Below are positions 11,034 through 33,165 of a stretch of 33,388 bases of DNA, in pieces. The notes under the pieces are model-generated. The model ran no database searches. It worked only from the letters and a program-made list of their open reading frames with translations, and was not told where the DNA came from. Source of the stretch: Candidatus Aphodovivens excrementavium (GTDB taxonomy: Bacteria; Actinomycetota; Coriobacteriia; Coriobacteriales; Eggerthellaceae); NCBI GenBank assembly GCA_018715935.1, contig DVKR01000021.1:1-33388 (forward strand), in the 5' to 3' direction. How positions within the stretch are numbered: position 1 is the stretch's first letter; the number at the start of each line of letters is the position of its first letter. A program made the translations under genes and the position numbers.

Positions 11034-11062
11034 CTGTTTACTCTATTTTTACCTTTTATGGG

Positions 11063-12100
11063 CTAACTGTTGGGAAACTCCGGAATTGGCACAATGCCCG
11101 TTGGGTCTTCCCCGGCGTCAACGGCAGCCATGAGCTCGGCCCACGCCTCTTTGTCTTCCTCCACGGTCCACAGATCGTTTTCGTCGTTTTCTCCCTCGTA
11201 GGGACCTGTGCAGCTGTAGAACGTAAGCGCGTCGATGTTTTCGGCGATCTGATACGCCACCTCGCGCACGACGTTGTAATCCAAATTGGTGGTAACGTTG
11301 CCGAACAGCGCATCGAGCATGCGCGGGAACGCGCCGCCGCTCGAACCCGAGGAAAAGCAGGCGTCAAGGGCCTTGTAGATGATGGATTCCTCTATGTTTC
11401 GTACGTTGATCTGGCGCAACGCCTCTTGGTTGTCGCCGTACTCCTTGCGTGCGCGCGCCACAACGAGCGCCTGAGATCCGTTGAGCTGCTTGTCGTCGCC
11501 TGCGCTAACCTGCACGTCTTTCGCCGTAGACGGGTCGGGAACCGTGACGGTTTGGGGAACGTCTACGGTTACGCCGCCCAGCGCGTCAACGAAGTCCTCG
11601 AAGCCAATGAACGTCGTCATGGCGTAGTAGTCTATCTCAACGCCCGTCAGCTGCTCTACCACGCTCACCACCGCTTGGGGGTCGTTGTCGGCAGCAAGCG
11701 CCTCGTTGATTTTCTCGCTGGTTCCCTCCAGCTTGGTGTCGCGCGGCACCGTCACCAGCGTGATGGTTGGCGTGTAGGGGTCTACGCGCATGAGCGTCAT
11801 GATGTCAGAGCGCTGGTCTACCTGGGAATGCTCGTTGGCCCTTCCGGTGTAGAGTGCTGTGCCTTTGCGCGAGTCGGACCCGATAAGCAGCACGTAGAAC
11901 GGCTCGTCGGGAACCTCCACTTCGGTTATTTCCACAGCGCCAGAGTCGGCAACTTCACGCCCCTCGACAATGCCTTTGGACTGGGCGAGCATGCCAACGG
12001 CCTCAACTACCATCAAACACGCCACCACGAAAACGGCAACAACCGCCACGGCAAGCGCGGCTTTCTTGCGGGCCTTTACAACGTCGGGAGAGGCCATCAT
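11063..12100 (-). CDS. LytR-CpsA-Psr (LCP) family cell-wall polymer ligase
   Basis: A 345-residue LCP phosphotransferase, which attaches undecaprenyl-linked glycopolymers to peptidoglycan. One N-terminal membrane anchor (about residues 14-38) leaves the catalytic domain outside. Conserved landmarks: YVLLIGSDSR, RSDIMTLMRVDP, VTVPRDTK, YYAMTTFIGFEDFVDALGGV and ARARKEYGDNQEALRQ, which include the arginine and aspartate residues used for pyrophosphate binding. The ATG overlaps the tagO-like stop by 4 bases (ATGA), so the first and last enzymes of wall polymer synthesis are translationally coupled. Confidence 0.95.
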   Translation of the reverse strand: MMASPDVVKARKKAALAVAVVAVFVVACLMVVEAVGMLAQSKGIVEGREVADSGAVEITEVEVPDEPFYVLLIGSDSRKGTALYTGRANEHSQVDQRSDIMTLMRVDPYTPTITLVTVPRDTKLEGTSEKINEALAADNDPQAVVSVVEQLTGVEIDYYAMTTFIGFEDFVDALGGVTVDVPQTVTVPDPSTAKDVQVSAGDDKQLNGSQALVVARARKEYGDNQEALRQINVRNIEESIIYKALDACFSSGSSGGAFPRMLDALFGNVTTNLDYNVVREVAYQIAENIDALTFYSCTGPYEGENDENDLWTVEEDKEAWAELMAAVDAGEDPTGIVPIPEFPNS

Positions 12101-13341: not shown

Positions 13342-13767
13342 GCAGCTCCTCGCGCCGATTGCCCGCCTCGCCGTGCGCCCAAAGCGCGCAGCGCGGTTTG
13401 CCCATGCGTTTGCCCACGCGTTTGTCGGCACGCCCCCAACGCACCGCTCCCGCGTTTGCAAGCCAAAATCCCCGCCGCCGCACATGCGGCACGAACTGAG
13501 CTCATGGGTGCAAACCTTTCATATTTTAGCAATACTTTGTGAAAAAGCGCATTCCGGCTCTATGGTTTGAGCAAAAGTCCAGATAAATATGGTTTTTCGA
13601 GCGCAATGCGAACCCATGCGGGCTATTCGGACGAAACGTTACGAGCCGAGCCCAGGTGCGGGCGTGCGTGGGGGTGCCGTGCGAGCACGCCACAGCGCCC
13701 GTGCGGGCGTGGGGCACCGTGCGAGCGCGCCGCACCGCCCGTGCGACCACACCCGCACCGCCAGCCG
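13342..13767. other. Intergenic region upstream of tagO
   Basis: Between the tagO start and the end of the enolase-family gene. It contains 12-bp direct repeats TTTGCCCAYGCG at 13397-13420 and a possible tagO -10 (TAAAAT on the minus strand near 13530-13540), then the GC-rich tandem repeat listed separately. No gene supported. Confidence 0.5.
13656..13762. repeat. GC-rich imperfect tandem repeat, about 2.5 units
   Basis: Units begin GTGCGGGCGTG at 13656 and 13701 (45 and 40 bases), each ending in GCGCCC or CCGCCC, with a degenerate third unit from 13741. Can fold strongly, but there is no T-tract, so I do not call it a terminator. Sits right after the stop of the enolase-family gene. Confidence 0.6.
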
Positions 13768-14862
13768 CTACAGCTCTACCGTGTACCTTGCCACCGCGTC
13801 CTCGTCAAGGGTCACGCCCAGGCCAGAACCTTCAGGAGCATACACGCGGCCGCCTTCAAAACGAATTGACTCGTTTATGAGACTCGGGCGCCCTTCTTGC
13901 TCAAAGTCCATGAACTCGCACGGACATTCGAACGCCTTCATTCCGCATGCCATGTGGACGATAGCCGTCATCCCCAAATCGCTTTCCGATTGCGACCCTA
14001 TCATCATCGGGCGCTGAAAGCCATCGCACAGCGAAGCGATTTTGCGGCCAAGCGTAAACCCGGAACGCGGGATCTTTATCATCAGGATAGAAAGGGCGTC
14101 GATATCGATCTGGTGAGCAATGTCGCCCATGGTAAAGTTGCTTTCGTCGCCCGTGATGGGGATGTCGATGCTATGCGCCAAGCGCACTCGGTCGCGCTCG
14201 TTTTGGGCGTTGATGGGCTCTTCGAAGTAGTCGAGCTCGCCGCGCGTTTCGTCGTAGACGCGCTTTGCGCCGAAGTAGGTGTAGAGCTGGTTTCCGTCGA
14301 TGTAGAGCTTCGTGTCGGGCGTTACCACCTCGCGCAGCAGATGGATGCGGCGGATGTCGGCCTCGGGATCGGCGCCGCCCTTCACTTTGAACGCGCGATA
14401 CCCGCGCTCGTTGAGTTCTTTTGCCTGCTGCTGCAGCACTTCGTCGCTGGAAAGCCACAAAATCCTGCTAGGGGCGATGCTTTCGCGATAGCCGCCAAGC
14501 AGCTTGAAGATCGGCTTGCCGCACGCTTTCCCTATGATGTCCCAAAGCGCTACGTCGATGCCGCCCTTCGCCGCTAGGTTGCTCTTGATGAAATCCATCT
14601 TCTCATGGATCTTCTCCGTGTCGAACGGATCCATCCCCTCAATGAGGGGCGCGAGATGGCGGGTGACCACGTGCACCATGCCCACTTGCGTTTCGCCATA
14701 GATGTTTTCGCGCGGAATGGCTTCGGCTATGCCTTCAATCCCCTCGTCGGTCATGATGCGCACGAGCACGTGCGACTGCGCGGTCATGCGACCCGTCGCC
14801 CACTCCATCACATGAGGCAGCGGAAGCCTTACCGGAATTGCCTGCACGCTTGTGATCTTCAT
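13768..14862 (-). CDS. Enolase-superfamily protein, muconate-lactonizing-enzyme subgroup
   Basis: A 364-residue TIM-barrel enzyme of the mandelate racemase/muconate lactonizing enzyme family. These use Mg2+ and an enolate intermediate to racemise, cycloisomerise or dehydrate carboxylates. Catalytic residues are in place: the K-x-K pair Lys159/Lys161 (FKVKGG), metal ligands Asp189 (YIDGN), Glu214 (YFEEP) and Asp239 (TGDES), and the opposite-face Lys263 (MIKIPRSG). This KxK...K set marks the MLE subgroup (cycloisomerases, o-succinylbenzoate synthases, dipeptide epimerases). The capping-domain sequence does not let me name a substrate. ATG 14862 is about 13 bases after GAGAGG. It is monocistronic between the wall polymer locus and the HD gene, with no linked catabolic partner. 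Confidence 0.88.
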   Translation of the reverse strand: MKITSVQAIPVRLPLPHVMEWATGRMTAQSHVLVRIMTDEGIEGIAEAIPRENIYGETQVGMVHVVTRHLAPLIEGMDPFDTEKIHEKMDFIKSNLAAKGGIDVALWDIIGKACGKPIFKLLGGYRESIAPSRILWLSSDEVLQQQAKELNERGYRAFKVKGGADPEADIRRIHLLREVVTPDTKLYIDGNQLYTYFGAKRVYDETRGELDYFEEPINAQNERDRVRLAHSIDIPITGDESNFTMGDIAHQIDIDALSILMIKIPRSGFTLGRKIASLCDGFQRPMMIGSQSESDLGMTAIVHMACGMKAFECPCEFMDFEQEGRPSLINESIRFEGGRVYAPEGSGLGVTLDEDAVARYTVEL

Positions 14863-15020
14863 CGTGGAATCATCGCCTCTCAAAACTTGCCTGCACAGCC
14901 CCGTTATACCACTTTGAGGCGCATTAAAAAGAGCCTCGAGGCAAGAACCTCCAGACAGTTGCGCGCACACCGGAAGACAGCTTGGCATTGAGGATTTCAG
15001 CCAGGGGCGAGAATTGACAG

Positions 15021-15122
15021 GCAGCGACCCCGAAACGCAGTACCTAGCCCTCATTCGAATTGATAGCAGGAATAGGGAGGTGACGAGCAGCCACCCGGAA
15101 ACGCAGGGCCTAGCCCAGCAGC
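15021..15122. repeat. Two-copy imperfect direct repeat, 66-base period
   Basis: About 38 bases around CCGAAACGCAG...CTAGCCC occur at 15021-15053 and again 66 bases later at 15087-15119. The second copy contains the stop codon and final codons of the HD-domain gene, so the first looks like a duplicated gene tail. Confidence 0.5.
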
Positions 15123-15544
15123 ACTTCTCGGGCGGCAGCGTATTTCTGCTGGTAGGCTGCAATCTTTTCGAGCGAAACGTCGCAGCCGGCGAACCGCGTT
15201 TGATCGGAGTTGTGGGCCAAATCCGCCAGCTTTACCTTAACGGCAACGGGATGACCCTTAATCGCGCGGACGTAATCGAGGTAGCCTACGCCCGGTTCGT
15301 GAGTCATAAGGCGAACGCCTTCAACCACTTCGGGCGGAAATTCCCGGGCGAGATCGTCAAGCGTTACATCGGTATCCTCCACAACGTCATGCAGCAGCGC
15401 CACACAGGTGGAAGTCTCGTCGTCCATTTGCTCGGCAACATGCAGCGGATGCGCGATGTAGGGCATGCCGCACTTATCAACCTGACCCTCGTGCGCCGCA
15501 TAGGCAATTCGCATCGCTTTGTTCGTAAGCGCGGTGTAGATCAT
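15110..15544 (-). CDS. Small HD-domain hydrolase resembling a (p)ppGpp hydrolase (MESH1/SAH type)
   Basis: A 144-residue single HD domain. The motif order follows SpoT and small alarmone hydrolases: AAHEGQVDKCGMPYIAHPL (His18, His32), VALLHDVVEDTDVT (His52-Asp53 and the E-D-T triad), and VKLADLAHNSD (Asp109, His112, Asn113). The metal site is therefore complete, and hydrolysis of the 3'-pyrophosphate of (p)ppGpp is the most likely activity; a related nucleotide substrate is possible. ATG 15544 follows GAGGAGACGC; the longer frame to 15769 would overlap the antitoxin gene on the other strand and is rejected. Divergent from the toxin-antitoxin pair. Confidence 0.85.
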   Translation of the reverse strand: MIYTALTNKAMRIAYAAHEGQVDKCGMPYIAHPLHVAEQMDDETSTCVALLHDVVEDTDVTLDDLAREFPPEVVEGVRLMTHEPGVGYLDYVRAIKGHPVAVKVKLADLAHNSDQTRFAGCDVSLEKIAAYQQKYAAAREVLLG

Positions 15545-16758: not shown

Positions 16759-18081
16759 CTATTCCCCAGCCTTTCCCTTCATGTAGTTCTCCGCCAAAGG
16801 ATCTCCGTACTTGCCACCCGTCTTTGGAAGCGTTATCAAAGCAACCAGACCGCCAATAAGCGCAATGGGGGCAGCCAGGATTGGATAGGCAAGCATATTG
16901 CCACCCGCCATGCTCGCAATGAACCAACCGCCCAAAATAGGACCGCCAAACCTGCCTATCAAACCAAACGTAGAAACCATGCCAGGACCTGCGCCGCGTA
17001 AGTCGGGCGGGAACAGCTCGGTCATCACCGTTTGTAGCATTGCGTTTGCCGCGATAATGATGCCAACAAAGAACGCAAGCACAAAGACAATCGTAGCCGG
17101 CGTTTCCCAAGTGAGAACCGGATACACGCACAGGTACAGCGCACTCGCCGCCACCATCAACACGCCGAGAATGTTCTTGCGCGCGAACTTATCGCTGAGC
17201 GAGGGGAACACCACTTGACCGATACAGATTCCTACGTATAGCAGCGAGGACACCAAGCCCGCAACCGTGATTGAATAGCCGGCAGACGTCAAAGCTGACA
17301 CAAAATATGTTTGGTGCATCATGTAGTAGAGCTGGAAGGCCACGTAAACAACGATCATCTTCCAGAGGTTTGGCATCTTAAACAGACGTTTGATGCGCGC
17401 GACGCTCGATTCAGTTCGAGCAGCTTCGTCCACAACCGACTGGTCAACCACAGCGGCTTCTTCCTTGTCGGAACCAAATGGAACCGTCCCCATGGCAGCA
17501 GGGCTATCGCGAATGAGCAAGAAAGACAAAATCGCAACCACGATGCCGATCCCACCAATTGCCTCGAAGCAAAGACGCCATCCGCCTGCAGTAATGAAGA
17601 TAGGTGCGATAACGCCCATCATGACACCGCCCAAAGAGCCGCCAACGATACAAAGGGCGAAGCCCTTGCCACGTGTATGGTTAGAGAACCATGTCCCCAC
17701 CAGTTTCGGCGTCACACCTGCGCCAATGCTTGCAAGAAACACTCCAAAAGCCGAATAACCAACGATAACGCTCACAGGTCCTGTTGCCAGCATTCCCGTC
17801 GCAAGCAAGATGACAGACGCAATGAGAGACCCGACACCCATCACCTTGCGAATACCGATCTTGTCGGCAAGATTTCCCGCCAGCACGGAAAAGCCGGCAT
17901 AGAACAGGCCGAAAAGCGATGCGGCAATTGCAATGGATGTCTGTTCCACCCCTAAATCTTCGGAGATCGAACCCAACGTCATGCCGAATATCTGAACGCC
18001 CCAGCACGCAATTATCTGAGTGAGGAAGCCTGCTCCTGCAACTACCCACGCATACTTAGGGCTCACCGAGGTTTTACTCAT
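16759..18081 (-). CDS. MFS transporter, distal gene of system A
   Basis: A 440-residue, 12-helix major facilitator of the OxlT/monocarboxylate-like group. The loop 2-3 motif appears as GNLADKIGIRKVMG, helix 5 region GVIAPIFITAGGWRLCF, and the second-half equivalent as SLSDKFARKNILG; a long charged central loop (SDKEEAAVVDQSVVDEAARTE) separates the halves. It is clearly paralogous to the MFS at 18454-19794 (shared YAWVVA..GFLTQI, IRDSPAA.GTVP, ELFPPDLRGAGPG). ATG 18081 lies behind GAGGAGGGTGAA. As last gene of an operon for a molybdenum/tungsten enzyme, it likely imports the substrate or exports the product (inference). Confidence 0.9.
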   Translation of the reverse strand: MSKTSVSPKYAWVVAGAGFLTQIIACWGVQIFGMTLGSISEDLGVEQTSIAIAASLFGLFYAGFSVLAGNLADKIGIRKVMGVGSLIASVILLATGMLATGPVSVIVGYSAFGVFLASIGAGVTPKLVGTWFSNHTRGKGFALCIVGGSLGGVMMGVIAPIFITAGGWRLCFEAIGGIGIVVAILSFLLIRDSPAAMGTVPFGSDKEEAAVVDQSVVDEAARTESSVARIKRLFKMPNLWKMIVVYVAFQLYYMMHQTYFVSALTSAGYSITVAGLVSSLLYVGICIGQVVFPSLSDKFARKNILGVLMVAASALYLCVYPVLTWETPATIVFVLAFFVGIIIAANAMLQTVMTELFPPDLRGAGPGMVSTFGLIGRFGGPILGGWFIASMAGGNMLAYPILAAPIALIGGLVALITLPKTGGKYGDPLAENYMKGKAGE

Positions 18082-18106
18082 TTCACCCTCCTCTTTCGAA
18101 AACGCA

Positions 18107-18177
18107 CCGCGCCTCCCAACAAAGCGCCGAACCAAAAGTCGAGCACGATATCTCAACGCCATGCGACGGAGGCGCGG
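18107..18177 (-). promoter_or_regulatory. Long-loop inverted repeat before the distal MFS gene
   Basis: Perfect 10-bp arms CCGCGCCTCC (18107-18116) and GGAGGCGCGG (18168-18177) with a 51-base loop, in the gap between the zinc-ribbon gene and the distal MFS gene, 26 bases before its start. Could limit read-through or protect mRNA ends; function not known. Confidence 0.4.
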
Positions 18178-18453: not shown

Positions 18454-19794
18454 CTATTCCTCAATAGGAGCTTGCGCTTGGGTTTTCTGAGCCAAATACT
18501 GCTCTGCCATAGGATCGCCGTACTTGCCAGCAGTTTTCGGAATAAAGATCAGCACGATGATGCCGCCGATGAGCGTGCATGGAGCAGCAACCAACATGTA
18601 ACTCCACGAGATACCGCCAAAAGCTCCAATAGCTGCTGCCGCGAGCAGCGGGCCGAAGAACCGACCGATAAGACTCAACGAAGAGATGAAGCCTGGACCA
18701 GCGCCTCGAAGGTCTGGAGGGAATAGCTCGCTTTCAACCGACTGAATGATCGCGAACGCCCCGAGGCACAAGCCACTGCAAAACGCAACAGCGTAAATGG
18801 CGATAATGTCGAAACTGCCTTCGAGCATGTAGTAAAGAGCGAAATAGAAGACGCCGGACAAAACCATCAGCCAACCAAGCACCGTCTTTCTGGCGAAACG
18901 GTCACTCAATGGCGAAAAGATGATATAGCCAAGGGAGCATCCCAGCAAAACCACCGTCGCACCCAAGCTCGCAGAAGCAAGATCGTACCCATGGGCAGCA
19001 AGCGAAGCTACGAAGTATGTCTGATGCCCCGTGTAATACAGCTGGAACAAAATAACCGCGACAGCCATAATCCACATCTTGGGCATCTTCATAATCCTGA
19101 TCATGCGATCAACATTGCTCGCCTTCTTCGCGTCTACGTCAACGGCTTTTTGATCCACAAGCTCTTCGTTTTCTTTTGCAGCACCTAAGGGAACAGTACC
19201 AATAGCCGCCGGGCTATCACGAATGAAAATCGTAGCAAGGATCATGCACACCAAACCGATAGCGCCAATCGCCTCAAAGCAAAAACGCCACCCGCCCATG
19301 CCAATGAAGATAGGCGCGATAACGCCTGTTGTGGCTCCCGCTAGCGACCCGCCCAAAATACAGATCATGAAGCCCTTGCCGCGCTGGTGCGTTGCAAACC
19401 AAACACTAATAAGCTTTGGCGTAACACCGTTGCCGATAGCGCCGAGCATAATTCCAGCCAATGCATACACCACCACAAGGCTCATTACGTCGTTGGTAGC
19501 CAAGCCGGCAACCACCAAAAGCGCAGCACCCGTAATACCGCCAATAGCAACTACTTTTCTCAAACCGATGCGGTCTGCCAAATTGCCCCAGAACACCGAA
19601 GTGCCTGCATAAAAAATGCCGAAAAGCGAAGCGCCGATGGCGAGCTCAGTCGTTTCTACACCGAAGTCACCTGCCACGGTGGCCAAGTTAACGCCCCAAA
19701 GAACAACCGCCATACTTGAAAGAATCTGCGTAAGGAAGCCCGCAGCGGCAACAACCCACGCATAACCTGAACGAGCTGTGCTTGTCCCTGTCAT
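18454..19794 (-). CDS. MFS transporter, proximal gene of system A
   Basis: A 446-residue, 12-helix MFS protein paralogous to the gene 370 bases downstream; landmarks include GNLADRIGLRKVVA, GVTPKLISVWFATHQRGKG, IRDSPAAIGTVP and SPLSDRFARKTVLG. Best placed in the OxlT/organic-acid or aromatic-acid group. Start taken as ATG 19794 with AGGTGG eight bases upstream; GTG 19806 in the same frame is the alternative. Two related transporters in one operon suggest an exchange pair (substrate in, product out) or two related substrates (inference). Confidence 0.9.
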   Translation of the reverse strand: MTGTSTARSGYAWVVAAAGFLTQILSSMAVVLWGVNLATVAGDFGVETTELAIGASLFGIFYAGTSVFWGNLADRIGLRKVVAIGGITGAALLVVAGLATNDVMSLVVVYALAGIMLGAIGNGVTPKLISVWFATHQRGKGFMICILGGSLAGATTGVIAPIFIGMGGWRFCFEAIGAIGLVCMILATIFIRDSPAAIGTVPLGAAKENEELVDQKAVDVDAKKASNVDRMIRIMKMPKMWIMAVAVILFQLYYTGHQTYFVASLAAHGYDLASASLGATVVLLGCSLGYIIFSPLSDRFARKTVLGWLMVLSGVFYFALYYMLEGSFDIIAIYAVAFCSGLCLGAFAIIQSVESELFPPDLRGAGPGFISSLSLIGRFFGPLLAAAAIGAFGGISWSYMLVAAPCTLIGGIIVLIFIPKTAGKYGDPMAEQYLAQKTQAQAPIEE

Positions 19795-19812
19795 GTCATC
19801 ACCCACCTAACC

Positions 19813-19883: not shown

Positions 19884-20243
19884 CTACCGAGAGAACAAAA
19901 CCTGGGTTGGTTTTTCCTTTAACTTCTCGGCGAGCTCGTCCAGCTTCCCGTAGTACATAATTCCTGCTTGGCAATGATGCACGCAGGTGGGGAGCTTGCC
20001 CACCGCCGTCCTGCTTGCGCAAAGATTGCACCTGCTCGTCAGAAGCGGCAGGTTAACCCATTCCCATTTATTGTTAGGAAGCTCAACTGGGCCGTATTCC
20101 AGCACCTTAATTCCCCATTCATGAGGAGCAAGGCCTAGCTCTTTCTGACACGCAACTTCGCAGGTATGGCAGTTCGTGCAAAATTCGTAGTCAATGAGAA
20201 TCCCGTACTCATTCGCCGAAGAACTTGGTAATGTCATTGCCAC
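19884..20243 (-). CDS. Small 2x[4Fe-4S] electron-transfer subunit of system A
   Basis: About 119 residues with eight cysteines in two ferredoxin-like sets: CTNCHTCEVAC (C-x2-C-x2-C-x3-C) and CNLCASRTAVGKLPTCVHHC (C-x2-C-x11-C-x3-C). This is a shortened DmsB/transhydroxylase-beta type subunit, about half the usual length, enough for two clusters. It should pass electrons to the molybdopterin subunit encoded just upstream, with which it overlaps. No signal peptide. The start is ambiguous: TTG 20246, GTG 20243 (GGAGG with 5-base spacing, chosen) or ATG 20237. It is paralogous to the subunit at 30465. Confidence 0.9.
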   Translation of the reverse strand: MAMTLPSSSANEYGILIDYEFCTNCHTCEVACQKELGLAPHEWGIKVLEYGPVELPNNKWEWVNLPLLTSRCNLCASRTAVGKLPTCVHHCQAGIMYYGKLDELAEKLKEKPTQVLFSR

Positions 20244-22575
20244 CAAACCCTCCTCCCTTGGTTACGATTTCGCTAGGCGAGCAATCGTTTTCTTCCGTTA
20301 CCTTGTAGACTTTGCACAACAGGCTCTTGTAAGGGGCGCCGAATCCGGAGCGTCCCGTTACGCCCAGCGTCGTTACGTTGTTCGAATTCGAGTCGAACAC
20401 GCCAAACAGATTCGGCTCGGCGCCCTCTTGCTCAGGGAACCACCATCCATGGCGCGCCCTTACCAGACCCTCAAGCAAGCCGGGTGCAATGTGCGCCTTT
20501 TGTTTGAACTTGCCTCGCTCGTTTTCGATCCAGATCCAATCTCCTTCTCGAACCCCTTCGGCGTCGGCAATCGACTGCGAGATATCGCACACGGGATCTT
20601 CCCAGAATTGCCTCATGTAGGGCATCTGTCGATGTTCGGAATGGAAGAATCCCGCCTGCCTGTGACCGGTAGTGAGCAGATAGGGATACTCTTTGTACAA
20701 TTCAGGAGTACGGTACGGGCTTTCGTATGGCTCGCAATATGAAGCGAGCGGATGAAGGTCGAGCACCTCGAACACCGGCGAATAGAACTCATACAGCCCC
20801 GTTGCCGTTACAAAGCCCGGCTGTCCATCCTGGCGAAGCATGCCTTTTTCGTACTTCTTGTACGTTTCGTTGAAATCCCAGTAGTCATACACCTTTTCGG
20901 TTAACTCGGGATAGGTGTAGTCGACGCCGTTGCCTTCATCTTGGATCATCCAAGTAAGAAAGTCTTCAAGCTGGTCGAACTGGCCGAAGAAGTCCGGACG
21001 GAAACGCTTTCCAAGCTCAAAGACAATTTCCTCATCCGCTTTCGCCTCGTAGTATCTATCCGCTGAAGCGGTAATAGCGCGCAATGGTTGCCACCACGAA
21101 CGGAAAGAATTGCGTTCAACGCTCATGGCCGCTGGTAAAACAAGATCGGCAAACGCCACCGCCGTCGGCGTCATGAACAGATCCACCACAACGGTATAAG
21201 GAACGTTCTTCCAGGCGCGATATACGCGAGGTGCGTCTCCCGCCATGTTGGCGATGGCATTGCTGCCTTCGCACCACAACATCTGGATAGGATAAGGCTC
21301 GCCCGATTCCAGCTGCTCTATTAGGCGATCGCAAGGAACGAACACGGTGAAGCCGGAAGAACACAGCGGCGACTCGCTTAAGCCAACGCGTCTGTCCTCC
21401 ATTTCGCTGCTGATAAATTCCATTCCGCAGCCATACTTCTTTGAGCTGTTGTAAGCATAGCGAACGATGATGTTGCCACCTGGAACATCCAAGTTGCCTG
21501 TCATGGCAACAAGATCGTTGATCGCCATACCGGCTTCCATGCCGGACACCTGCTGGTCGATCGCAAGACCCCATTGCACTGCTGCAGGCTTTGCCGCAGC
21601 ATACATGCGCGCAGCCTCAATTATCTGCTCTGCAGGAACCCACGTAACCTCGGAGGTCTTTTCAGGCGTCCACTCCTGTACATGCTCTTTAAGCTCGTCG
21701 AATCCATAGGTCCAATTCTCAACGAATTCCTTGTCGTATAGCTCTTCGTTGATAACCACGTGAAGCATGCCCAAAGCAAGAGCGCAGTCGGTTCCAGGGC
21801 GGATCTTCAACCACATGTCTGCCTGTGCCCCAAGCCACGTTAACGCCGGATCGATCACAATCAGCTTTGTTCCCATGCGCATGAGATCAACAAGCCAATG
21901 CCCCATAAAGCCGTCACCGTTAGAAGACAGGGGCTCGTTGCCCCACACGACCATCAGCTCGGGCTTTTGCCACTGCGGATTATCGTAGCGATCATGCAAG
22001 GTTTGAGCTGCGTCCAGGATCCAGCAGTCGCCGCCTTTGAGCATGTTGGCAAGCATACGCGGTTGATAGCACGATTCACCGCTAAGAAAAGCAGTAGCAA
22101 GATTGGGGCTTCCGAAAACCGCTCGGATCACCATAGCGATATGCCACATAGTGTTACGGCCAGTGCCGGCAAGGCCCACGATGCCCTCCGGCCCTATTCC
22201 GCCGGGATACTGCTTGATCGTCTCACAAATTTCGGCGTACTTCTCTTCGATCCAGTCGAAAGCCTCATCCCACGTGATGCGCTTCCATTTGTTCTCGCCC
22301 TTTTCCCCATCACGCAGCAAGGGATACTTCAAGCGATCTTTGTGATACACGGCCTCTGCCATATCGAGACAGCGCATGCACAGTCTGCCTTGGTTGTAGG
22401 GAAAGTTGGGGTCGCCCTCTACATGATCCAGCTTTCCGTCCTTGGTGTAGTACAGAACACCGCACCCGTTGTGACAGCCAGGGCCAGTCCATACCGAAGA
22501 TCGCGTAACTTCGAACTCCCCCTCTTGCCATCGCCATTGATCTTTATAGATCGATTTGTCGTATTCGTTTATCAT
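20209..22575 (-). CDS. Molybdopterin (bis-MGD) oxidoreductase large subunit, system A; dehydroxylase/transhydroxylase-like
   Basis: A 788-residue DMSO-reductase superfamily enzyme. N-terminal Fe-S domain: Cys34-x3-Cys38-x27-Cys66-x2-Cys69, with Gly where the first canonical cysteine should be. ESCYQPR (Cys169) lies where family members supply the Mo/W ligand. VVWGNEPLSSNGDG and KLIVIDPALTW are cofactor-binding segments, and the C-terminal molydop-binding domain includes TTGHRQAGFFHSEHR. No Tat signal, so it is predicted cytoplasmic. Composition (large subunit, tiny Fe-S partner, MFS) resembles gut catechol dehydroxylases and is in the wider group of acetylene hydratase and pyrogallol-phloroglucinol transhydroxylase (family knowledge). 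ATG 22575 has AAGGAGGTG seven bases upstream. It is the first gene of a five-gene operon. The substrate is unknown; an aromatic hydroxyl compound is inferred. Confidence 0.9.
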   Translation of the reverse strand: MINEYDKSIYKDQWRWQEGEFEVTRSSVWTGPGCHNGCGVLYYTKDGKLDHVEGDPNFPYNQGRLCMRCLDMAEAVYHKDRLKYPLLRDGEKGENKWKRITWDEAFDWIEEKYAEICETIKQYPGGIGPEGIVGLAGTGRNTMWHIAMVIRAVFGSPNLATAFLSGESCYQPRMLANMLKGGDCWILDAAQTLHDRYDNPQWQKPELMVVWGNEPLSSNGDGFMGHWLVDLMRMGTKLIVIDPALTWLGAQADMWLKIRPGTDCALALGMLHVVINEELYDKEFVENWTYGFDELKEHVQEWTPEKTSEVTWVPAEQIIEAARMYAAAKPAAVQWGLAIDQQVSGMEAGMAINDLVAMTGNLDVPGGNIIVRYAYNSSKKYGCGMEFISSEMEDRRVGLSESPLCSSGFTVFVPCDRLIEQLESGEPYPIQMLWCEGSNAIANMAGDAPRVYRAWKNVPYTVVVDLFMTPTAVAFADLVLPAAMSVERNSFRSWWQPLRAITASADRYYEAKADEEIVFELGKRFRPDFFGQFDQLEDFLTWMIQDEGNGVDYTYPELTEKVYDYWDFNETYKKYEKGMLRQDGQPGFVTATGLYEFYSPVFEVLDLHPLASYCEPYESPYRTPELYKEYPYLLTTGHRQAGFFHSEHRQMPYMRQFWEDPVCDISQSIADAEGVREGDWIWIENERGKFKQKAHIAPGLLEGLVRARHGWWFPEQEGAEPNLFGVFDSNSNNVTTLGVTGRSGFGAPYKSLLCKVYKVTEENDCSPSEIVTKGGGFGGNDITKFFGE

Positions 22576-23498: not shown

Positions 23499-25037
23499 AT
23501 GAGCGAATACGAGGTTGCCGCAAAGCTGTCGAAGGACTACATTACAACTCGAAAGCTCGACGGGTTTGGCATTCTTTTTGCCTGGCACACCATTCTCATT
23601 TTTGCGCCGCTGATCACGTCGAGCCCCTTTCACGTCCTTGACGTTCTTTGGTTGCGTCAAATCGTACTTTGCTTCTCTATCGCCGCCGCATTCGCCTTGT
23701 ATCCCCTGCTATTTCAGCCTCTTTTTTCGCGCATAAGCAGCCTTGAAATACCTAGCGTATTCGTTTTCTTTGGAATTGCGTGCCTGGGAACAACCTCAAC
23801 AACGGTAATGCTTTGCACTGACCTGCCGGCACCTTACTTGGTCGCCAATGCGATTGCAGGTCTCTCTGAGGGCATTTTAATGATGTTTTGGCTCACTAAT
23901 TATTACAGCATTTCCGGCTATAAAACCAATGTGACCGCTTCGCTGCACGCCGTCGCCGGAACACTCGCGGCATTTTTGCTCGGACAACTTTCGTTCTTGG
24001 CGGCGGTTGTCGTTATTTCAATACTCCCCCTGATCGCCGCATCGCTATACATCCGCGGAGCTCATCTTTTGCGTGAGGCGGATAACTTCGATTGCTTTTC
24101 AGCGGAAGGCGACGACGCGGACAGTGTGCAACTTACGGAGTCCAACATAGCCGATGCTTTCAAGCGTTCGCGCCATCATTTTGAATTGATGATCATCCTA
24201 ACTATCGTTTTCGGCCTGTCGTTCGGCATGGTTCAATCAATTCACCTAGAAACTGAGCAATTTCTTATTGGGGCTACAAATCCTCTTGCTTTATTAGGCG
24301 CAACTGCGGCCTATCTCCTTATCGCAGCATTCCTCGATTACCGTAAGACCAGGCTTGCTCTCATTATTGTTCTTGCCGTATCGTTTATCGCCTTTTCCAT
24401 TGGCGCGATGGGCGTTTCGGTGTCGCCTTTCGAAAGTCCGAGCTGGACGATATCGTGCGGAATCGTGATTGCCGGATTTCATTTTTTCGATTTCGCGGTG
24501 CTAGCTATCACCATCAGCGTTGCGCAATCGGCTCAGTCAAGCCCTATTCTGAGAATTGGAATTAACCGCGCCGCAGTTTATTTCGGCTACGGCCTGAGCT
24601 TTCTTTTGGGGCATGTTGTCTTTTCTCATTCAAGCGTTATTACCGAAAGCCAACTTACCGGCTTCCTTTTGGTGCCCATCATCACCATTTTGGCCGTGTA
24701 TGTTTGGTTTACCCTCAGTGGAGAAGGGGATGTTCCGCCGTCCGGAATCCAAGAAGGTGCAGAACAGGAAAACGAGCACGAACCGAAAAAGATCGCTACC
24801 ACGTCGGAGTTGGGTAATTTCGAAAACGCCTGCGCCACCGTTGCCGACCAGTATCATCTAACTCCCAGAGAAACCGATGTGCTACGCATCTTGGCAAAGG
24901 GGCGCAATGCCGCCTACATCGCACAAGAACTATGGATTTCAACGCTTACCGCAAAGACGCACATTGCAAACATATACAGAAAGCTAGGCGTTCATTCTCT
25001 TCAAGATCTGCTTGATGTTGTTGAAGAGTTTAAGTAA
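23499..25037 (+). CDS. Membrane-anchored LuxR-family transcriptional regulator
   Basis: A 512-residue protein: residues 20-410 hold about a dozen hydrophobic helices arranged like an MFS fold, then a charged linker (about 415-445), then a LuxR-type helix-turn-helix with LTPRETDVLRILAKGRNAAY, STLTAKTHIANIYRKLGV and a final LLDVVEEF. This architecture is abundant in Eggerthellaceae, where such proteins control nearby substrate-inducible metabolic genes (family knowledge). ATG 23499 follows GGGGGAGGC. Its closest metabolic target is system A, about 1 kb away and divergent; it may sense the transported substrate in the membrane (inference). Confidence 0.92.
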   Translation: MSEYEVAAKLSKDYITTRKLDGFGILFAWHTILIFAPLITSSPFHVLDVLWLRQIVLCFSIAAAFALYPLLFQPLFSRISSLEIPSVFVFFGIACLGTTSTTVMLCTDLPAPYLVANAIAGLSEGILMMFWLTNYYSISGYKTNVTASLHAVAGTLAAFLLGQLSFLAAVVVISILPLIAASLYIRGAHLLREADNFDCFSAEGDDADSVQLTESNIADAFKRSRHHFELMIILTIVFGLSFGMVQSIHLETEQFLIGATNPLALLGATAAYLLIAAFLDYRKTRLALIIVLAVSFIAFSIGAMGVSVSPFESPSWTISCGIVIAGFHFFDFAVLAITISVAQSAQSSPILRIGINRAAVYFGYGLSFLLGHVVFSHSSVITESQLTGFLLVPIITILAVYVWFTLSGEGDVPPSGIQEGAEQENEHEPKKIATTSELGNFENACATVADQYHLTPRETDVLRILAKGRNAAYIAQELWISTLTAKTHIANIYRKLGVHSLQDLLDVVEEFK

Positions 25038-26540: not shown

Positions 26541-27431
26541 TTACAGGGCGGCGGCGCTGATTTCGTCCACCAGGGAGAGAAGCGCAGGGGTTTCGCGCAC
26601 CCTATCCCAAACAACCCTGACGCTAAACGGGGGGACTTCGGATTTCAGCGAGATTTTCTGCAGGCCGTCTTGGTTCATGAACTCAAACACATGCCCGTAG
26701 GTTATGACCGCCTTGCTGCTGCACATCAGCAGCGTTTCGAGCGTGAGGATATTCGAATGGAACTTCCTCTCGCTTCGCATCGACTCCTCGAGCCCCAGCA
26801 GCTTCCTCAGCGCGCTCGACTCTGGCGCGTCAAGCCCGCGATACGGGAAAATCACATCGTCGCGCGAAACAAGATCGTCGATGCGCACGCGGTCGTACGC
26901 ACAAAGCTCATGCCCGGCAGGAGCGATAACACATATCTCATCTGGGACGATTTCCCGCGATCCATACCTCTCGGGAAAGGCAAAAACGCCTGTGGTGACG
27001 GCGACGTCCAACTTTCCCTTCAGCAACGCCGAAATGATGTCCTCTATCTCCATGGCCTTGAATTCCACGGTAACGTTCTGATGCTTTACGCGAAACGCCG
27101 ACAACGCCTCGTTCAAAAAGCCTTTCGTGGCGCAATACAAATACCCCAGCCTGATCTTGCTGCCCTCGCCATCGGCAGGCTGTTTGATGCGCGACAGAGC
27201 CTTATCGTAATCGTTTAAAAGCCGCTTTACATCGGGAAGGAACCGCTCCCCCACCAACGTGAGCTCGATGCCGTTTGAGGTTCTCAGAAACAACGTAACG
27301 CCCAGCTCTTTCTCGAGCGCAGCGATATGCTTGCTCATGGTCGATTGCGTTACGTAGAAATTCTTCGCAGATGACGAAAAGCTGCGCGTCTGCGCAAGAT
27401 CGTAGAACTCTCTGAGCACTTCGATATTCAA
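26541..27431 (-). CDS. LysR-family transcriptional regulator, divergent from system B
   Basis: A 296-residue LysR protein. The winged HTH is at residues 1-60 (LREFYDLAQTRSFSSSAKNF, TQSTMSKHIAALEKELG, LFLRTSNGIELT), followed by a LysR substrate domain beginning KIRLGYLYCATKG, a split periplasmic-binding-protein-like ligand pocket. The start is TTG 27431 with AGGAGAGG seven bases upstream; the upstream extension to 27611 is repetitive and rejected. It is transcribed away from the system B large-subunit gene across a 616-base gap, the usual arrangement for a LysR activator of the divergent operon. A ligand related to the enzyme substrate is likely (inference). Confidence 0.9.
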   Translation of the reverse strand: MNIEVLREFYDLAQTRSFSSSAKNFYVTQSTMSKHIAALEKELGVTLFLRTSNGIELTLVGERFLPDVKRLLNDYDKALSRIKQPADGEGSKIRLGYLYCATKGFLNEALSAFRVKHQNVTVEFKAMEIEDIISALLKGKLDVAVTTGVFAFPERYGSREIVPDEICVIAPAGHELCAYDRVRIDDLVSRDDVIFPYRGLDAPESSALRKLLGLEESMRSERKFHSNILTLETLLMCSSKAVITYGHVFEFMNQDGLQKISLKSEVPPFSVRVVWDRVRETPALLSLVDEISAAAL

Positions 27432-27477
27432 GATCGCGCCTCTCCTCGTCACTTCGCACCTGCACTGCCTGGGGGTG

Positions 27478-27605
27478 TTTCGGCCCGCGCTGCGCGCAGC
27501 CTGGCAGCGTTTCGGTCCGCCTCGCGCCCGCGCAGCCTTGCGACGCCCGAACCAATTTGCGCGCTCTGCGCCGCTTCGGCCCGCATTGCGCGCTCCGCGC
27601 CGCTC
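27478..27605. repeat. GC-rich imperfect repeats of about 31-32 bases
   Basis: TTTCGG(C/T)CCGC recurs at 27478 and 27510, and TTGCGCGCTCYGCGCCGC occurs at about 27556 and 27586. Together they form about four degenerate units in the LysR 5' leader. Confidence 0.45.
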
Positions 27606-27636
27606 AAACACGCAAAGGGGTAGTCAGCTTTGTCCT

Positions 27637-28047: not shown

Positions 28048-30447
28048 ATGAGAACGAAGGCAGTCGAGAGCAAGCCGACGACGAAAGCCGACGGCACCGA
28101 GCAGAAAAGCGCGAAGAACTTCTTCGGCGGATCGGGAACGCACAAAAACGACGTCCCCCAAGACGACCCGACCGGCAGGCTTTGCCAATGGGAGGAAGAC
28201 GGGATGACCGTCTACCGCACCAACGCGCGCACGGCGCCGGGCTGCCACAACAACTGCGGCCTGCTCGTGTACGTGAAAGACGGCGTTATCGACCACATCG
28301 AAGGCGACCCGGAAAACCCCCACAACCAGGGCAGATTGTGCGTTCGCTGCCTTGCTGCGAAAGAGGTCGTCTACCACAAAGACCGCGTGCTCTACCCTAT
28401 GAAACGCGCACGCGAGCACCGCGGCGAAGACAAATGGGAGCGCATCACCTGGGATGAGGCGATGGACATCGTCTACGACAAGATGATGGGAATCATCAAA
28501 GAGTACGGCGCGCAGTCCATTTTCGTGCACCAGGGCACCGGCCGCGACATCAACGGCTACACGGGCATCTTCGCCCACACGTTCGGCACGCCCAACAAAG
28601 GCATGGGCCTGCTGGCAGGCCAGTCGTGTTACGCGCCGCGCTTTTTCAGCACGTCGCTCAAGATCGGCGATTTCTTCATCTGCGATTACGGTCAGTTCTT
28701 CCCCCAGCGCTACGACGACCCGCGCTTCACGCCGCCGGGATGCATCATGGTTTGGGGCAACAACCCCCTCGTCGCAAACTCCGACGGCTCTCTTGGCCAC
28801 TGGGTGGTCGAGTGCATGAAACGCGGCTCGAAGCTTTTGGTGGTCGACCCCAAGCTCACCTGGCTTGCCGGCAAAGCGGACGTGTGGGTGCCGCTGCGCC
28901 CGGGCACCGACACCGCTTTGGCCTTGGGCATGTGCAGGGTCATTCTCGAAGAAGGCCTTGAAGACAAGGAGTTCATCGACCTTTGGACCTACGGCTTCGA
29001 AGAGTGGAAAGCCGCCGTGGAAGAATACACACCCGAAAAAGTCGCCGAGATCTGCTGGATCGACCCCAAAGACGTTGTTAACGCGGCTCGCCTTGTGGGC
29101 AGCGCCGATTCCGCCTGCCTGCAGTGGGGCGTTGCGCTCGACCATCAGCCAAGCGGCTTCACAACGGGCATGGCGGCCTTCGATCTGCTTGCGCTTACCG
29201 GCAATTTCGAGAAGCCGGGCTCTATGGTCACCGCGCGTCCCTGCTTCGGCGTTGGAGAAACCTGGATGTCGGGCCAAGACTTCTTCGAGGAAATCCCCGA
29301 AAGCGAATGGGCTGCCTCGGAGGATCTGCGCATGAACGACTGGTACGGCCCTCTGCGCGCTATGGCCGCAGTCGCTCCCGACGAAGAGCTCAACGCGCTT
29401 CTGACCGGCGACCCCTACCCCATCAAGGCCGTGTGGCTTGAAACCTGCAACGTCACCGCCAACATGGGTGCCGAGGTCGACAAAATCATGCGCGGGCTCC
29501 AAGGCACCGAGTTCAACGTAACGGTGGACCTCTTCATGACCCCCACCGCCATGGCAACCGCAGATCTTTTCCTGCCTGCCTGCACGTTCTTCGAGCGCAT
29601 CGGCCTTACCGGCCACCAGCCCTATCAGCTCGGCGCCATCCAGCAGTGCATCCAGCCCTTAGGCGAGTCGAAGTCGGACATGCAAATCCTCATGTACGTC
29701 ATGGACCGCTTCTACGGCTCGGAGAACCTGCCCTGGAAAGACCGCGACAACATCGAGGGGTTCTTCGATTACATCCTGCGCAAGACCCCCTTCACCTACG
29801 ACGACATGCGCCAGCGCACCTGGGCATACCCGCCCTTCGAGTACGACAAGATGCGCTCGGGGAAAATACGGCCCGACGGCGGCGCCGGTTTCAACACCGC
29901 CTACGGGCGCTACAACTTCTACGTGAACTTCATGCAGCAGTTCGACCTCAACCCGCTCGCGGTGTTCGATGAGCCTTACGAAAGCCCGGTGACCACGCCC
30001 GACCTGTACGAGGAATACCCGCTCATCCTGGTGACGGGCGTTCGCAAATGGGGTCTGTTCCATTCCGAGCATCGCCAGTGCCCGTCTATGAGGCAGCTTC
30101 ACCCCCGCGCCACCTCGTACCTCAACAGCAAAACGGCGACGAAATACGGCGTGGAGACGGGCGACCGCATCCTTATCGAAAACAGGTACGGCTCGTGCAC
30201 CCAACATGTCGAGATCGACGACTGCATCAAAGACGACATGCTCTACGTCGACCACGGCTGGTGGTATCCGGAACGCGCCTGCGACGACGGCACCTACTTC
30301 GGCGTTATGGAGGAAAACATCAACAGATGCCTCCCGATGACTCCTGGAAAAACGGGTCTGGGCTGCTCGTACAAGACGCAGCTTTGCAAGATCACCAAGG
30401 TGCCGGAAGACTACGTTGTCGAGTTCCCCGAAAACATCAAGCACTAG
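28048..30447 (+). CDS. Molybdopterin (bis-MGD) oxidoreductase large subunit, system B; dehydroxylase/transhydroxylase-like
   Basis: A 799-residue paralogue of the system A large subunit, with a hydrophilic N-terminal extension of about 32 residues and no Tat signal. Fe-S motif: Cys66-x3-Cys70-x27-Cys98-x2-Cys101, again without the first canonical cysteine (Ala63). GQSCYAPR (Cys194) is the candidate Mo/W ligand region. Cofactor segments IMVWGNNPLVANSDGS and KLLVVDPKLTW and the C-terminal VTGVRKWGLFHSEHR are conserved. ATG 28048 follows AAAGGAG. It is co-transcribed with the small Fe-S subunit 17 bases downstream. Likely activity: reductive removal or transfer of a hydroxyl on an aromatic substrate (inference from family members such as catechol dehydroxylases); the substrate is unknown and probably differs from system A. 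Confidence 0.9.
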   Translation: MRTKAVESKPTTKADGTEQKSAKNFFGGSGTHKNDVPQDDPTGRLCQWEEDGMTVYRTNARTAPGCHNNCGLLVYVKDGVIDHIEGDPENPHNQGRLCVRCLAAKEVVYHKDRVLYPMKRAREHRGEDKWERITWDEAMDIVYDKMMGIIKEYGAQSIFVHQGTGRDINGYTGIFAHTFGTPNKGMGLLAGQSCYAPRFFSTSLKIGDFFICDYGQFFPQRYDDPRFTPPGCIMVWGNNPLVANSDGSLGHWVVECMKRGSKLLVVDPKLTWLAGKADVWVPLRPGTDTALALGMCRVILEEGLEDKEFIDLWTYGFEEWKAAVEEYTPEKVAEICWIDPKDVVNAARLVGSADSACLQWGVALDHQPSGFTTGMAAFDLLALTGNFEKPGSMVTARPCFGVGETWMSGQDFFEEIPESEWAASEDLRMNDWYGPLRAMAAVAPDEELNALLTGDPYPIKAVWLETCNVTANMGAEVDKIMRGLQGTEFNVTVDLFMTPTAMATADLFLPACTFFERIGLTGHQPYQLGAIQQCIQPLGESKSDMQILMYVMDRFYGSENLPWKDRDNIEGFFDYILRKTPFTYDDMRQRTWAYPPFEYDKMRSGKIRPDGGAGFNTAYGRYNFYVNFMQQFDLNPLAVFDEPYESPVTTPDLYEEYPLILVTGVRKWGLFHSEHRQCPSMRQLHPRATSYLNSKTATKYGVETGDRILIENRYGSCTQHVEIDDCIKDDMLYVDHGWWYPERACDDGTYFGVMEENINRCLPMTPGKTGLGCSYKTQLCKITKVPEDYVVEFPENIKH

Positions 30448-30464: not shown

Positions 30465-30809
30465 ATGGATTACGGTTTGCTTATTGACTACAAGTGGTGC
30501 TGCGGGTGCCATACCTGCGAAATTGCCTGCCAGCAGGCGCACGAGGGCTATGCGCCAACGGAAATCGGCGAGCAGGGCAAGTTCGGAATCAAGCTGTTCC
30601 AAATCGGGCCGTTCGATTTAGGAAACAAGAAATACCAATACGAATGGCTGCCGGTTCCCACGTCGTTTTGCGACCTCTGCGCCGACAGGACGGCAAAGGG
30701 CAAGCTTCCCACGTGCGTCAAGCACTGCCAAGACGCCTGCATCAAGTACGGCCCTGTTGAGGAGCTCGCCAAAGAGCTCAAGTCGGACCACATGGCGCTG
30801 TTCCGATAG
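30465..30809 (+). CDS. Small 2x[4Fe-4S] electron-transfer subunit of system B
   Basis: A 114-residue protein with two clusters' worth of cysteines: Cys12-x2-Cys15-x2-Cys18-x3-Cys22 and Cys69-x2-Cys72-x11-Cys84-x3-Cys88; Cys13 is extra. The order (GLLIDYKWCCGCHTCEIAC ... FCDLCADRTAKGKLPTCVKHC) closely mirrors the system A subunit. It should deliver electrons to the large subunit. ATG 30465 has GAGGAG six bases upstream. No membrane anchor subunit is encoded next to it, so the electron donor must be a soluble or distantly encoded carrier. Confidence 0.92.
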   Translation: MDYGLLIDYKWCCGCHTCEIACQQAHEGYAPTEIGEQGKFGIKLFQIGPFDLGNKKYQYEWLPVPTSFCDLCADRTAKGKLPTCVKHCQDACIKYGPVEELAKELKSDHMALFR

Positions 30810-30926: not shown

Positions 30927-31814
30927 CTACCCCTTCGAAGCCGTCTTCTGGGCCGCTTGATAGAGCTTCATCGCCTGCGAGTTGGGATGCTTGGGGAAGA
31001 TGAGTCCGTAGGGCATGCTATACGTCTCGGCAAACGGAACGCACACGAGGTCGGAATGGATGTCTTCCCACATTTCGAACGTTACGATAGCGCGCTGGTT
31101 GATCTCGCAGTCGGCGAACAGTTCCATCGTGTAGAAGGGAACCTCGGTGATGCGATTTGCCCCCAACGACGAGAGATACAGGTGAGCGGCGTCGAAATCG
31201 GCGGACACCCCTTGCTTCATCGTGACCAAATCCAAGTCGCGAAGCATGGCGGCATCAACGACCTCGGAGGTTGCCGCCTTGAGCGATTTCGGCAAAGCGA
31301 GACAGAACGGAATGCGCACGAGCTCGAGAAACATGCATCGATCCCGATAGAGCTCAGACATATAGAGCCCCTCCATCACGTCGTAGGAAACCCCCAGACC
31401 ACGCAGATAGTTCCCCGGCTCGACGCCCGCGCTTTCAAGCGAAATGATGTCGATGCGGGTTCCGGGCGCATCCTCAATCATGCGCGACCAGATCCCCGGC
31501 AGAAGACGGCACTTCATCAGAAGCGACGTTGCCACACGTATGGGGCCTTCGCCCTGCTGGATATGACGCGCTCGCGCCACCGCCTCATCGCATCGCCGCA
31601 CGATGTCAACCGCGTCTCGGTACAACGACTCCCCCGCTTCGGTAAGCTTGATGCCCCGAGGTCCGCGCTCAAACAGCTCGATGCCAAGACGCTGCTCAAG
31701 GAGATCTATCTGCTGTATAAGCGAGGACGGCGCGATGTAGAGCGCGCGGGCGGCTTTGGTGAAGCTTCCCGCATTCGCCGCCTCGATGAACGATTTGATG
31801 TGACGCGAATACAC
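30927..31814 (-). CDS. LysR-family transcriptional regulator, divergent from the OxlT-like MFS
   Basis: A 295-residue LysR protein: HTH in residues 1-60 (IKSFIEAANAGSFTKAARAL, APSSLIQQIDLLEQRLG, LFERGPRGIKLTEAGE), then an effector domain from IRVATSLLMKCRLLPG. It is not a close copy of the LysR at 26541. Start GTG 31814 behind AAAGGAG. It is divergent from the MFS gene across 127 bases with several dyads, so the MFS gene is its most likely target; system B may also be in its regulon (inference). Confidence 0.92.
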   Translation of the reverse strand: MYSRHIKSFIEAANAGSFTKAARALYIAPSSLIQQIDLLEQRLGIELFERGPRGIKLTEAGESLYRDAVDIVRRCDEAVARARHIQQGEGPIRVATSLLMKCRLLPGIWSRMIEDAPGTRIDIISLESAGVEPGNYLRGLGVSYDVMEGLYMSELYRDRCMFLELVRIPFCLALPKSLKAATSEVVDAAMLRDLDLVTMKQGVSADFDAAHLYLSSLGANRITEVPFYTMELFADCEINQRAIVTFEMWEDIHSDLVCVPFAETYSMPYGLIFPKHPNSQAMKLYQAAQKTASKG

Positions 31815-31941: not shown

Positions 31942-33165
31942 ATGGAGCTACAGGCAATCAAGCGCAAGCGCTATGTCTATCTTTTCATGTCGGCGATTTC
32001 GTTTTTGGTGTTAGGCCTGGTCTATGGCTGGTCGCTGTTCGCCACGCCACTCGCCGAAATCTACGGCTGGGAAATGTCGGCGGTGAAGATGACCTTCACG
32101 TTCTGCATGATGGCGTTTTGCGTAGGCGGGCTTATCGGCGTCAAGGTTCTCAACGGAATAGGACTCAGAGGCGCCATCCTGCTGTCGGCGTGCCTGCTTG
32201 TCTGCGGGTTCGGCGGAACGGCGCTGCTGGCGCCCCAGGGCATCTGGGCGCTCTACATCTGCTATGGCGTCCTGATTGGCTGCGGCACCGGGCTGGGCTA
32301 CAACGTGACTATCGCGTCGATCACGCCTTGGTTCCCCGATAAATCCGGTTTCGCATCGGGCGTGATGTTCGCCGGGTTCGGACTTGGCTCCATCACGCTT
32401 GGCACGCTCACGCGCGGCATCATCGGGACGGCGGGCATCACCGTCGCGTTTGCCGTTGTTGCGGCAACCGCCGGCGTTGTCATGGTGATTTTGTCGCTGC
32501 TTTTAAAGCGCGCCCCCGAAAATATCGCCGAGCTCTTGGGCGTCACCGCAAAAAAGACCAAGACCGCGCCGGACGCCGAGGCGGATCAGCGCAAGATCTT
32601 CAAAGATCCGGCGTTCTACACCTACTACCTGTGGGCCATCATCATCTTGGGCGCCGGCCTCACCATGATCGGCACCTCCATGCAAGGCGCGCTCGAACTG
32701 GGCATTAACGAGACGTTCGCTGCCACGCTCGTGGGTATTGTCCCTATCGTGAACGGGTGCTCGGGCTTCTCGATGGGCGTCGTCTACGACAAGATCGGCC
32801 TGCGCAAATGCATGATCCTCGTTGCCGCCATCGGCTTCGTGTCGCTCACGATGCTGGCGGTCTCTTTCCAGACGGGAGCCGGTGCGCTCTACGTTGCGGG
32901 CTGCCTGGTTTTGGTTATCGCCTACGGCAGTGTGGCACCGCTTGCAGCCGGCTTCGCTCGCGAACGCTACGGCAACGCGCGCTATCCGCATCACCTCGCC
33001 ATCGTCAACACCGACATCGCTGGCGGGTCTGCGTTCCAGCAAGTCGTATCCAGCGCATGCGCGGGAGCAAGCCCGGCAATCTATGTCGCTATGGCTGTTT
33101 TTGGCGGCGTCGCGCTGGTGACAAGCGCAATTCACTCGCGCATCACCAAGCCAAAGCGGCAATAG
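31942..33165 (+). CDS. OxlT-like MFS transporter
   Basis: A 407-residue, 12-helix MFS protein of the oxalate:formate antiporter-like group: LVLGLVYGWSLFATPLAEIYGW at the start, GCGTGLGYNVTIASITPWFPDK in helix 4-5, a short charged central loop (AKKTKTAPDAEADQRK), and YDKIGLRKCMILVAAIGF in the second half. ATG 31942 follows GAGGGGG. Members exchange small carboxylates, and in gut actinobacteria such transporters often sit beside redox enzymes acting on imported aromatic acids (family knowledge plus inference). It may serve system B through the shared regulator rather than a shared transcript. Confidence 0.92.
   Translation: MELQAIKRKRYVYLFMSAISFLVLGLVYGWSLFATPLAEIYGWEMSAVKMTFTFCMMAFCVGGLIGVKVLNGIGLRGAILLSACLLVCGFGGTALLAPQGIWALYICYGVLIGCGTGLGYNVTIASITPWFPDKSGFASGVMFAGFGLGSITLGTLTRGIIGTAGITVAFAVVAATAGVVMVILSLLLKRAPENIAELLGVTAKKTKTAPDAEADQRKIFKDPAFYTYYLWAIIILGAGLTMIGTSMQGALELGINETFAATLVGIVPIVNGCSGFSMGVVYDKIGLRKCMILVAAIGFVSLTMLAVSFQTGAGALYVAGCLVLVIAYGSVAPLAAGFARERYGNARYPHHLAIVNTDIAGGSAFQQVVSSACAGASPAIYVAMAVFGGVALVTSAIHSRITKPKRQ

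Follow-up and report, generated by a model that had tools for sequence, protein, structure and literature searches.

A displaced cysteine in the Fe-S motif of two catechol-dehydroxylase-like large subunits from Candidatus Aphodovivens excrementavium

Related enzymes and the cysteine motif

Catechol dehydroxylases decide the gut bacterial processing of dopamine, dietary polyphenols and some drugs. Their closest characterised relative is acetylene hydratase (PMC7028382). The Gordonibacter-type enzymes are recognised by the lack of a signal peptide, a catalytic subunit of ~770 aa, a small 4Fe-4S partner, MFS neighbours and often a LuxR regulator (PMC7028382, PMC11585353, PMC12771579), and according to a 2024 review they lack the Fe-S motif that Eggerthella-type catalytic subunits have (PMC11574389). 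Here we describe two systems, A and B, encoded in a stretch of 33,388 nucleotides (the window) of Candidatus Aphodovivens excrementavium, contig DVKR01000021.1. Each has a large subunit of the bis-molybdopterin guanine dinucleotide (bis-MGD) type, the two being ~42% identical, in which the cysteines of the Fe-S motif depart from the canonical order.

The canonical motif for the large-subunit cluster FS0 of bis-MGD enzymes, C-x2-C-x3-C-xn-C, is not found in either protein, its first cysteine being Gly31 in A and Ala63 in B, as the initial annotation had claimed and the codons attest. We call this position C1, the three remaining canonical cysteines C2 to C4, and the shifted cysteine, three residues after C4, C5. 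Codon reading also bore out the identical C-x3-C-x27-C-x2-C spacing reported earlier for the two proteins, and the range first singled out (22369-22476) runs exactly from Cys69 to Cys34 of system A. The Pfam Fe4S4 domain PF04879 is still over cut-off in A and B, with the match beginning at profile position 9. Two paralogues in the same genome (L010 and L012) also bear the C5 motif.

In a comparison restricted to solved structures, the best PDB relative of both large subunits is acetylene hydratase (2e7z), far ahead of the next one (E 1e-82 and 6e-76, the latter for A). An AlphaFold2 model of A (predicted local distance difference test, pLDDT, 91.4) matches this structure with a Z score of 37.8 and 2.4 angstrom over 691 residues. 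No RR motif of a twin-arginine signal appears near the N-terminus of A or B. Given this, their length of ~790 aa, the small Fe-S partner and the MFS neighbours, we assign both by sequence to the acetylene-hydratase/catechol-dehydroxylase group, as Gordonibacter-type catechol-dehydroxylase-like enzymes. This assignment and the cluster-free orthologues (see below) go beyond the initial annotation.

The displaced cysteine across relatives

A total of 84,980 species genomes were scanned with a four-sequence alignment, giving 76 named loci, and further loci came from genome searches. The survey set consists of 208 non-redundant relatives, 163 of them members of the clade and 45 outside it. Motif classes were set by sequence pattern, rows outside the pattern were read by eye, and one locus (L163) was put by hand in the cluster-free class. 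Within the clade, 129 members carry C2-C3-C4-C5, five have Asp at C2 together with C5, 27 have none of the four and two are rearranged. C1 is never a cysteine in the 163 members and C5 is present in 134 of them, which upholds the earlier view of a conserved subfamily trait. An alignment of homologues had been proposed to look for co-variation, and loss of the one cysteine does accompany gain of the other: C5 without C1 is seen in 134 and both in none. None of the 45 relatives outside the clade has Cys at C4+3, and the first cysteine is there wherever their motif can be read; a few rows diverge too strongly for the motif to be clear. In a phylum-wide draw of PF04879, all 26 readable canonical motifs end in C-x-K-G.

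The residue at C1 is Ala, Gly or Pro in all C5-bearing relatives. Of the 129 motif-bearing sequences, 116 have three residues between C2 and C3 and 13 have four, and between C3 and C4 there are 27 residues in 88, 28 in 40 and 26 in a single one. This recurrence with near-constant spacing rules out sequencing error or chance as the origin of the motif, in agreement with the annotation, which had taken it not to be an error. The 124 full-length motif-classed members share five invariant cysteines, namely 34, 38, 66, 69 and Cys169, which is predicted to bind Mo; the next in conservation reaches 85%. C5 is kept in 134 of the 136 clade members that retain C3 and C4, the five Asp variants at C2 all being among the 134, and His follows C2 in 161/161, cluster-free group included. 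An upstream cysteine at C2-7 was ruled out as a substitute ligand, being present in only 24 of the 129 at a position open to many residues (T, S, C, Y, N).

The clade is represented in Coriobacteriia, Sporomusa, Moorella, Peptococcaceae, Anaerolineales, Dehalococcoidia and one deltaproteobacterium, which points either to an early origin of the C5 trait or to its wide transfer. In Gordonibacter pamelaeae 7-10-1-b and Gordonibacter sp. 28C, the best 30 clade matches are all of the C5 type, one of them with Asp at C2. The Asp variants (n=5) keep C3, C4 and C5, so four possible ligands remain. Paralogues of this kind, reading PPGDHPVGCG, are L013, L014/L031 (G000 contigs 51 and 34), L088, L090 and L119. 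The copy on contig 34 of the genome that holds the window is split into two frames, and a near-identical copy lies at the end of contig 51.

Phylogenetic trees were built on 671 columns, with the Fe-S domain excluded, by FastTree and by IQ-TREE with a mixture model. A single branch with support 100 separates canonical sequences from clade members, so that one switch from C1 to C5 suffices in our sample.

Cluster-free orthologues and the role of C5

Nested among the C5-bearing sequences, beside the Asp variants (support 99), lies a group of orthologues, 78-93% identical across ~20 Eggerthellaceae genera, that amounts to a natural knock-out. The large subunit reads PPGSHPVGYG ... GRVNAMN, with S34, Y38, N66 and N69 in 27/27, and Arg68 has become Met or Leu, while His35 and Cys169 are kept. 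In the adjoining small subunit both 4Fe-4S motifs are gone in 26/26 testable loci (TYFSGNHAAEIACKE in place of WCCGCHTCEIACQQ), and no Pfam or NCBIfam model matches it. Small subunits found beside C5-bearing large subunits have both motifs in 103/104; in the remaining one, Ns mask the sequence. The ratio of non-synonymous to synonymous substitution rates (dN/dS) is low, ~0.15 and ~0.05 in two cluster-free pairs, which indicates that the genes are maintained; probably, they encode a non-redox enzyme. The pair is present in ~35 of 138 Eggerthellaceae genomes.

Altogether C5 is lost in 29 of the 163 clade members, in 27 of which all other ligands and the partner clusters are gone as well, the loop being rearranged in the other two; the cysteine does not, then, vary freely. 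Since it is lost together with C2, C3, C4 and the clusters of the partner, C5 behaves as a cluster ligand, and this joint loss is the strongest evidence, at the level of sequence, for such a role. It strongly implies that C5 physically ligates the cluster, that is, that the shifted cysteine acts as the fourth ligand as had been suggested; the redox potential may differ in consequence, as the same annotation proposed. We consider it highly probable that A and B serve as the catalytic subunits of bis-MGD enzymes resembling the catechol dehydroxylases of the Gordonibacter type, and that they keep FS0 with a relocated ligand, the set being Cys34, Cys38, Cys66 and Cys69 in the numbering of A. Metal binding and cluster type in the large subunit are predicted; the motif, its fixation across the clade and its joint loss with the partner clusters are observed. 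Chances seem about even for a fuller scenario, in which one FS0 ligand changed ends within the motif of the whole clade, from N- to C-terminal, and one Eggerthellaceae lineage then became Fe-S free in both subunits, with its bis-MGD site under purifying selection, and is now a non-redox (hydratase-, isomerase- or transhydroxylase-like) Mo enzyme.

4Fe-4S clusters are often chelated locally by a CxxC pair. The C5 variant would still have one such pair, now at the far end of the motif, the chelate being C4-x-R-C5 instead of C1-x2-C2. Electrons from a donor would travel through the small subunit, by way of its two 4Fe-4S clusters, to FS0 and on to Mo, where an aromatic substrate would be reductively dehydroxylated. 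The Ala, Gly or Pro at C1 would belong to a fixed x-P-G loop placing the invariant His35, at the position of acetylene hydratase Asp13, over the Mo site. His35 is likely catalytic, by analogy, because the Asp13 position is essential in acetylene hydratase and the His is invariant even without the cluster; a catalytic His35 would account for an x-P-G-[C]-H loop that stays fixed in the cluster-free group. Freeing the first position beside this His may also give room for larger aromatic substrates.

Other explanations have to be weighed against a relocated ligand. The large subunit might hold no Fe-S cluster, with the four cysteines structural (disulfide or zinc) and electrons going straight to Mo from the small subunit, which would fit the review's wording of an absent motif; pyrogallol hydroxytransferase is a relative not known to have an FS0 cluster. 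However, four invariant cysteines stand at FS0 loop positions in a domain that PF04879 recognises over cut-off, and their loss coincides exactly with that of the partner clusters, unexpected for a structural or zinc role. The Arg near C4 is also lost there. In formate dehydrogenase FDH-H, cationic K44 stabilises the cluster (PMC12176258), and Arg68 occupies the equivalent position, a further point for FS0. We regard a large subunit without a cluster as very improbable.

A site with three cysteines is also unlikely. Here C2, C3 and C4 would hold a [3Fe-4S] cluster, as arsenite oxidase has at the FS0 site, or a [4Fe-4S] cluster whose fourth ligand is water or a different residue, and C5 would merely pack nearby. 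Two Dehalococcoidia sequences, L114 and L207, speak for it, as they lack C1 and C5 and yet their small subunit keeps its clusters. The near-complete retention of C5 wherever C3 and C4 are kept, and the Asn at both C4 and C5 in the cluster-free group, are stricter than packing demands. In DMSO reductase (dimethyl sulfoxide reductase) subfamily II (NarG, EbdA, PcrA) the FS0 ligands are His, at the first position, and three Cys (PMC8840923), a precedent for exchange at position 1; ligation in the style of NarG or ethylbenzene dehydrogenase, with a first ligand other than Cys, is nevertheless hardly credible in A and B, as Gly, Ala or Pro there has no ligating side chain, the residue at C2-7 is unconstrained, and the predicted Mo ligand is Cys169 rather than the Asp of subfamily II.

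Several points weigh against C5 as a relocated ligand. The C5 class is defined by pattern, so that its 100% conservation within the class is partly by construction; that the four motif classes take in every clade member is independent of this. A single switch means that the count of 134 to 0 does not represent 134 independent tests, and the later exceptions weigh more. Among these, L114 and L207 are nested within the clade as sister to the C5-bearing L211/L214, and have Gly at C5, C2 shifted by one residue and Lys-Gly for Arg-Cys: C5 is dispensable in that lineage, with the loop rebuilt. Six C5-bearing systems have no small subunit found alongside. Finally, a sequence search of the PDB gave no structure from the clade, and the geometry of C5 and iron is thus hypothetical.

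The Fe-S motif of the Gordonibacter-type clade thus reads as rearranged and not absent. We found no description of the C5 arrangement in the open-licence literature, a search that did not include Le et al. 2022 (Annu Rev Biochem), the source of the statement that the motif is absent, so an earlier description is possible. If C2-C5 hold FS0, the electron path would be unbroken as in the relatives, and the statement of a catalytic subunit without a cluster motif would need correcting. The C5 motif, xPGCH..CG...LCxRC, is a simple signature to find members, and the cluster-free orthologues are a ready natural control.

Genomic setting and comparison with known systems

The genome holding the window has 2.08 Mb, and the window is its contig 13. 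Coordinates are collected in Table 1. A regulator of the LuxR type stands beside A only and regulators of the LysR type beside B, with MFS genes near both systems; a Pfam scan identified no anchor-type membrane subunit gene beside either of them. An enolase-superfamily gene (mandelate racemase/muconate-lactonizing; 13768-15162, minus strand) adjoins the MFS pair of system A and could be part of the same aromatic catabolism. Further away (10036-13485, minus strand) there are cell-surface polysaccharide genes, encoding an ABC permease (KpsM/Wzm-like, weak match), an LCP-family ligase and a glycosyl transferase of family 4.

Table 1. Coordinates of the motif positions, genes and related loci (in the window unless another locus is given).
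Feature	Position	Strand	Remarks
C1 position (missing first cysteine), system A	22483..22485	-	Gly31 codon
C2 to C3, system A	22462..22476	-	Cys34 (22474-22476), His35 (22471-22473), Cys38 (22462-22464)
C4 to C5, system A	22369..22380	-	Cys66 (22378-22380), Arg68, shifted cysteine Cys69 (22369-22371)
Cys169 codon, predicted Mo ligand, system A	22069..22071	-	aligns with acetylene hydratase Cys141 region; invariant in all motif classes including cluster-free
C1 position (missing first cysteine), system B	28234..28236	+	Ala63 codon
C2 to C3, system B	28243..28257	+	Cys66 (28243-28245), His67, Cys70 (28255-28257)
C4 to C5, system B	28339..28350	+	Cys98 (28339-28341), Arg100, Cys101 (28348-28350)
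System A large (bis-MGD) subunit, Gordonibacter-type catechol-dehydroxylase-like	20209..22575	-	788 aa, starts MINEYDK; PF00384, PF01568, PF04879 over cut-off
System A small subunit	19884..20240	-	~118 aa; two 4Fe-4S sites, FCTNCHTCEVAC and RCNLC..TCVHHC
MFS transporter adjoining system A	18454..19806	-	Pfam match
Second MFS transporter, downstream of system A	16759..18162	-	Pfam match
LuxR-family regulator, divergent from system A	23499..25037	+	512 aa; C-terminal PF00196 GerE
System B large (bis-MGD) subunit	28048..30447	+	799 aa, starts MRTKAVE
System B small subunit	30465..30809	+	114 aa; two 4Fe-4S sites
LysR-family regulator upstream of system B	26541..27611	-	
LysR-family regulator downstream of system B	30927..31814	-	
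MFS transporter downstream of system B	31942..33165	+	Pfam match
Rearranged lineage, Dehalococcoidia	L114:418-2655 and L207:1456-3741		C-x5-C, then C-x-K-G; neither C1 nor C5
Cluster-free group, L134-L164	e.g. L164:2975-5350 and 2596-2964	- (both)	
Cluster-free pair in G. pamelaeae 7-10-1-b	~3413068-3415398		

The architecture of A and B is shared with the Gordonibacter-type catechol dehydroxylases (Dodh, Gp Hcdh, Eadh1/2/3), a likeness drawn from published descriptions; system B differs from them in being flanked by LysR instead of LuxR. In the acetylene hydratase of Pelobacter acetylenicus the cluster ligands are the canonical Cys9/12/16/46, and Asp13, which directly follows the second of these, contacts the water on the metal and is required for activity (PMC12096430). 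Like this enzyme, A and B have a predicted Cys metal ligand (Cys169 aligned to Cys141) and a residue of catalytic type right after the second cluster cysteine; unlike it, C1 is gone, C5 is gained and an invariant His (His35/His67) stands for Asp13. Acetylene hydratase is, moreover, a tungsten hydratase, unlike A and B, for which a Mo enzyme of the dehydroxylase type is proposed. Pyrogallol hydroxytransferase (4v4c), another bis-MGD enzyme acting on an aromatic ring, is a distant relative in sequence (E 1e-8), and the clade of catechol dehydroxylases does not include it (PMC7028382); at most, it would have its functional counterpart in the cluster-free group and not in A and B. DMSO reductase subfamily II offers the precedent of an altered FS0 ligand at the first position, although in A and B the replacement cysteine lies at the opposite end and Mo is predicted to have another ligand. 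Because exchange of an FS0 ligand is already known from the His of subfamily II, the C5 motif would extend a known phenomenon.
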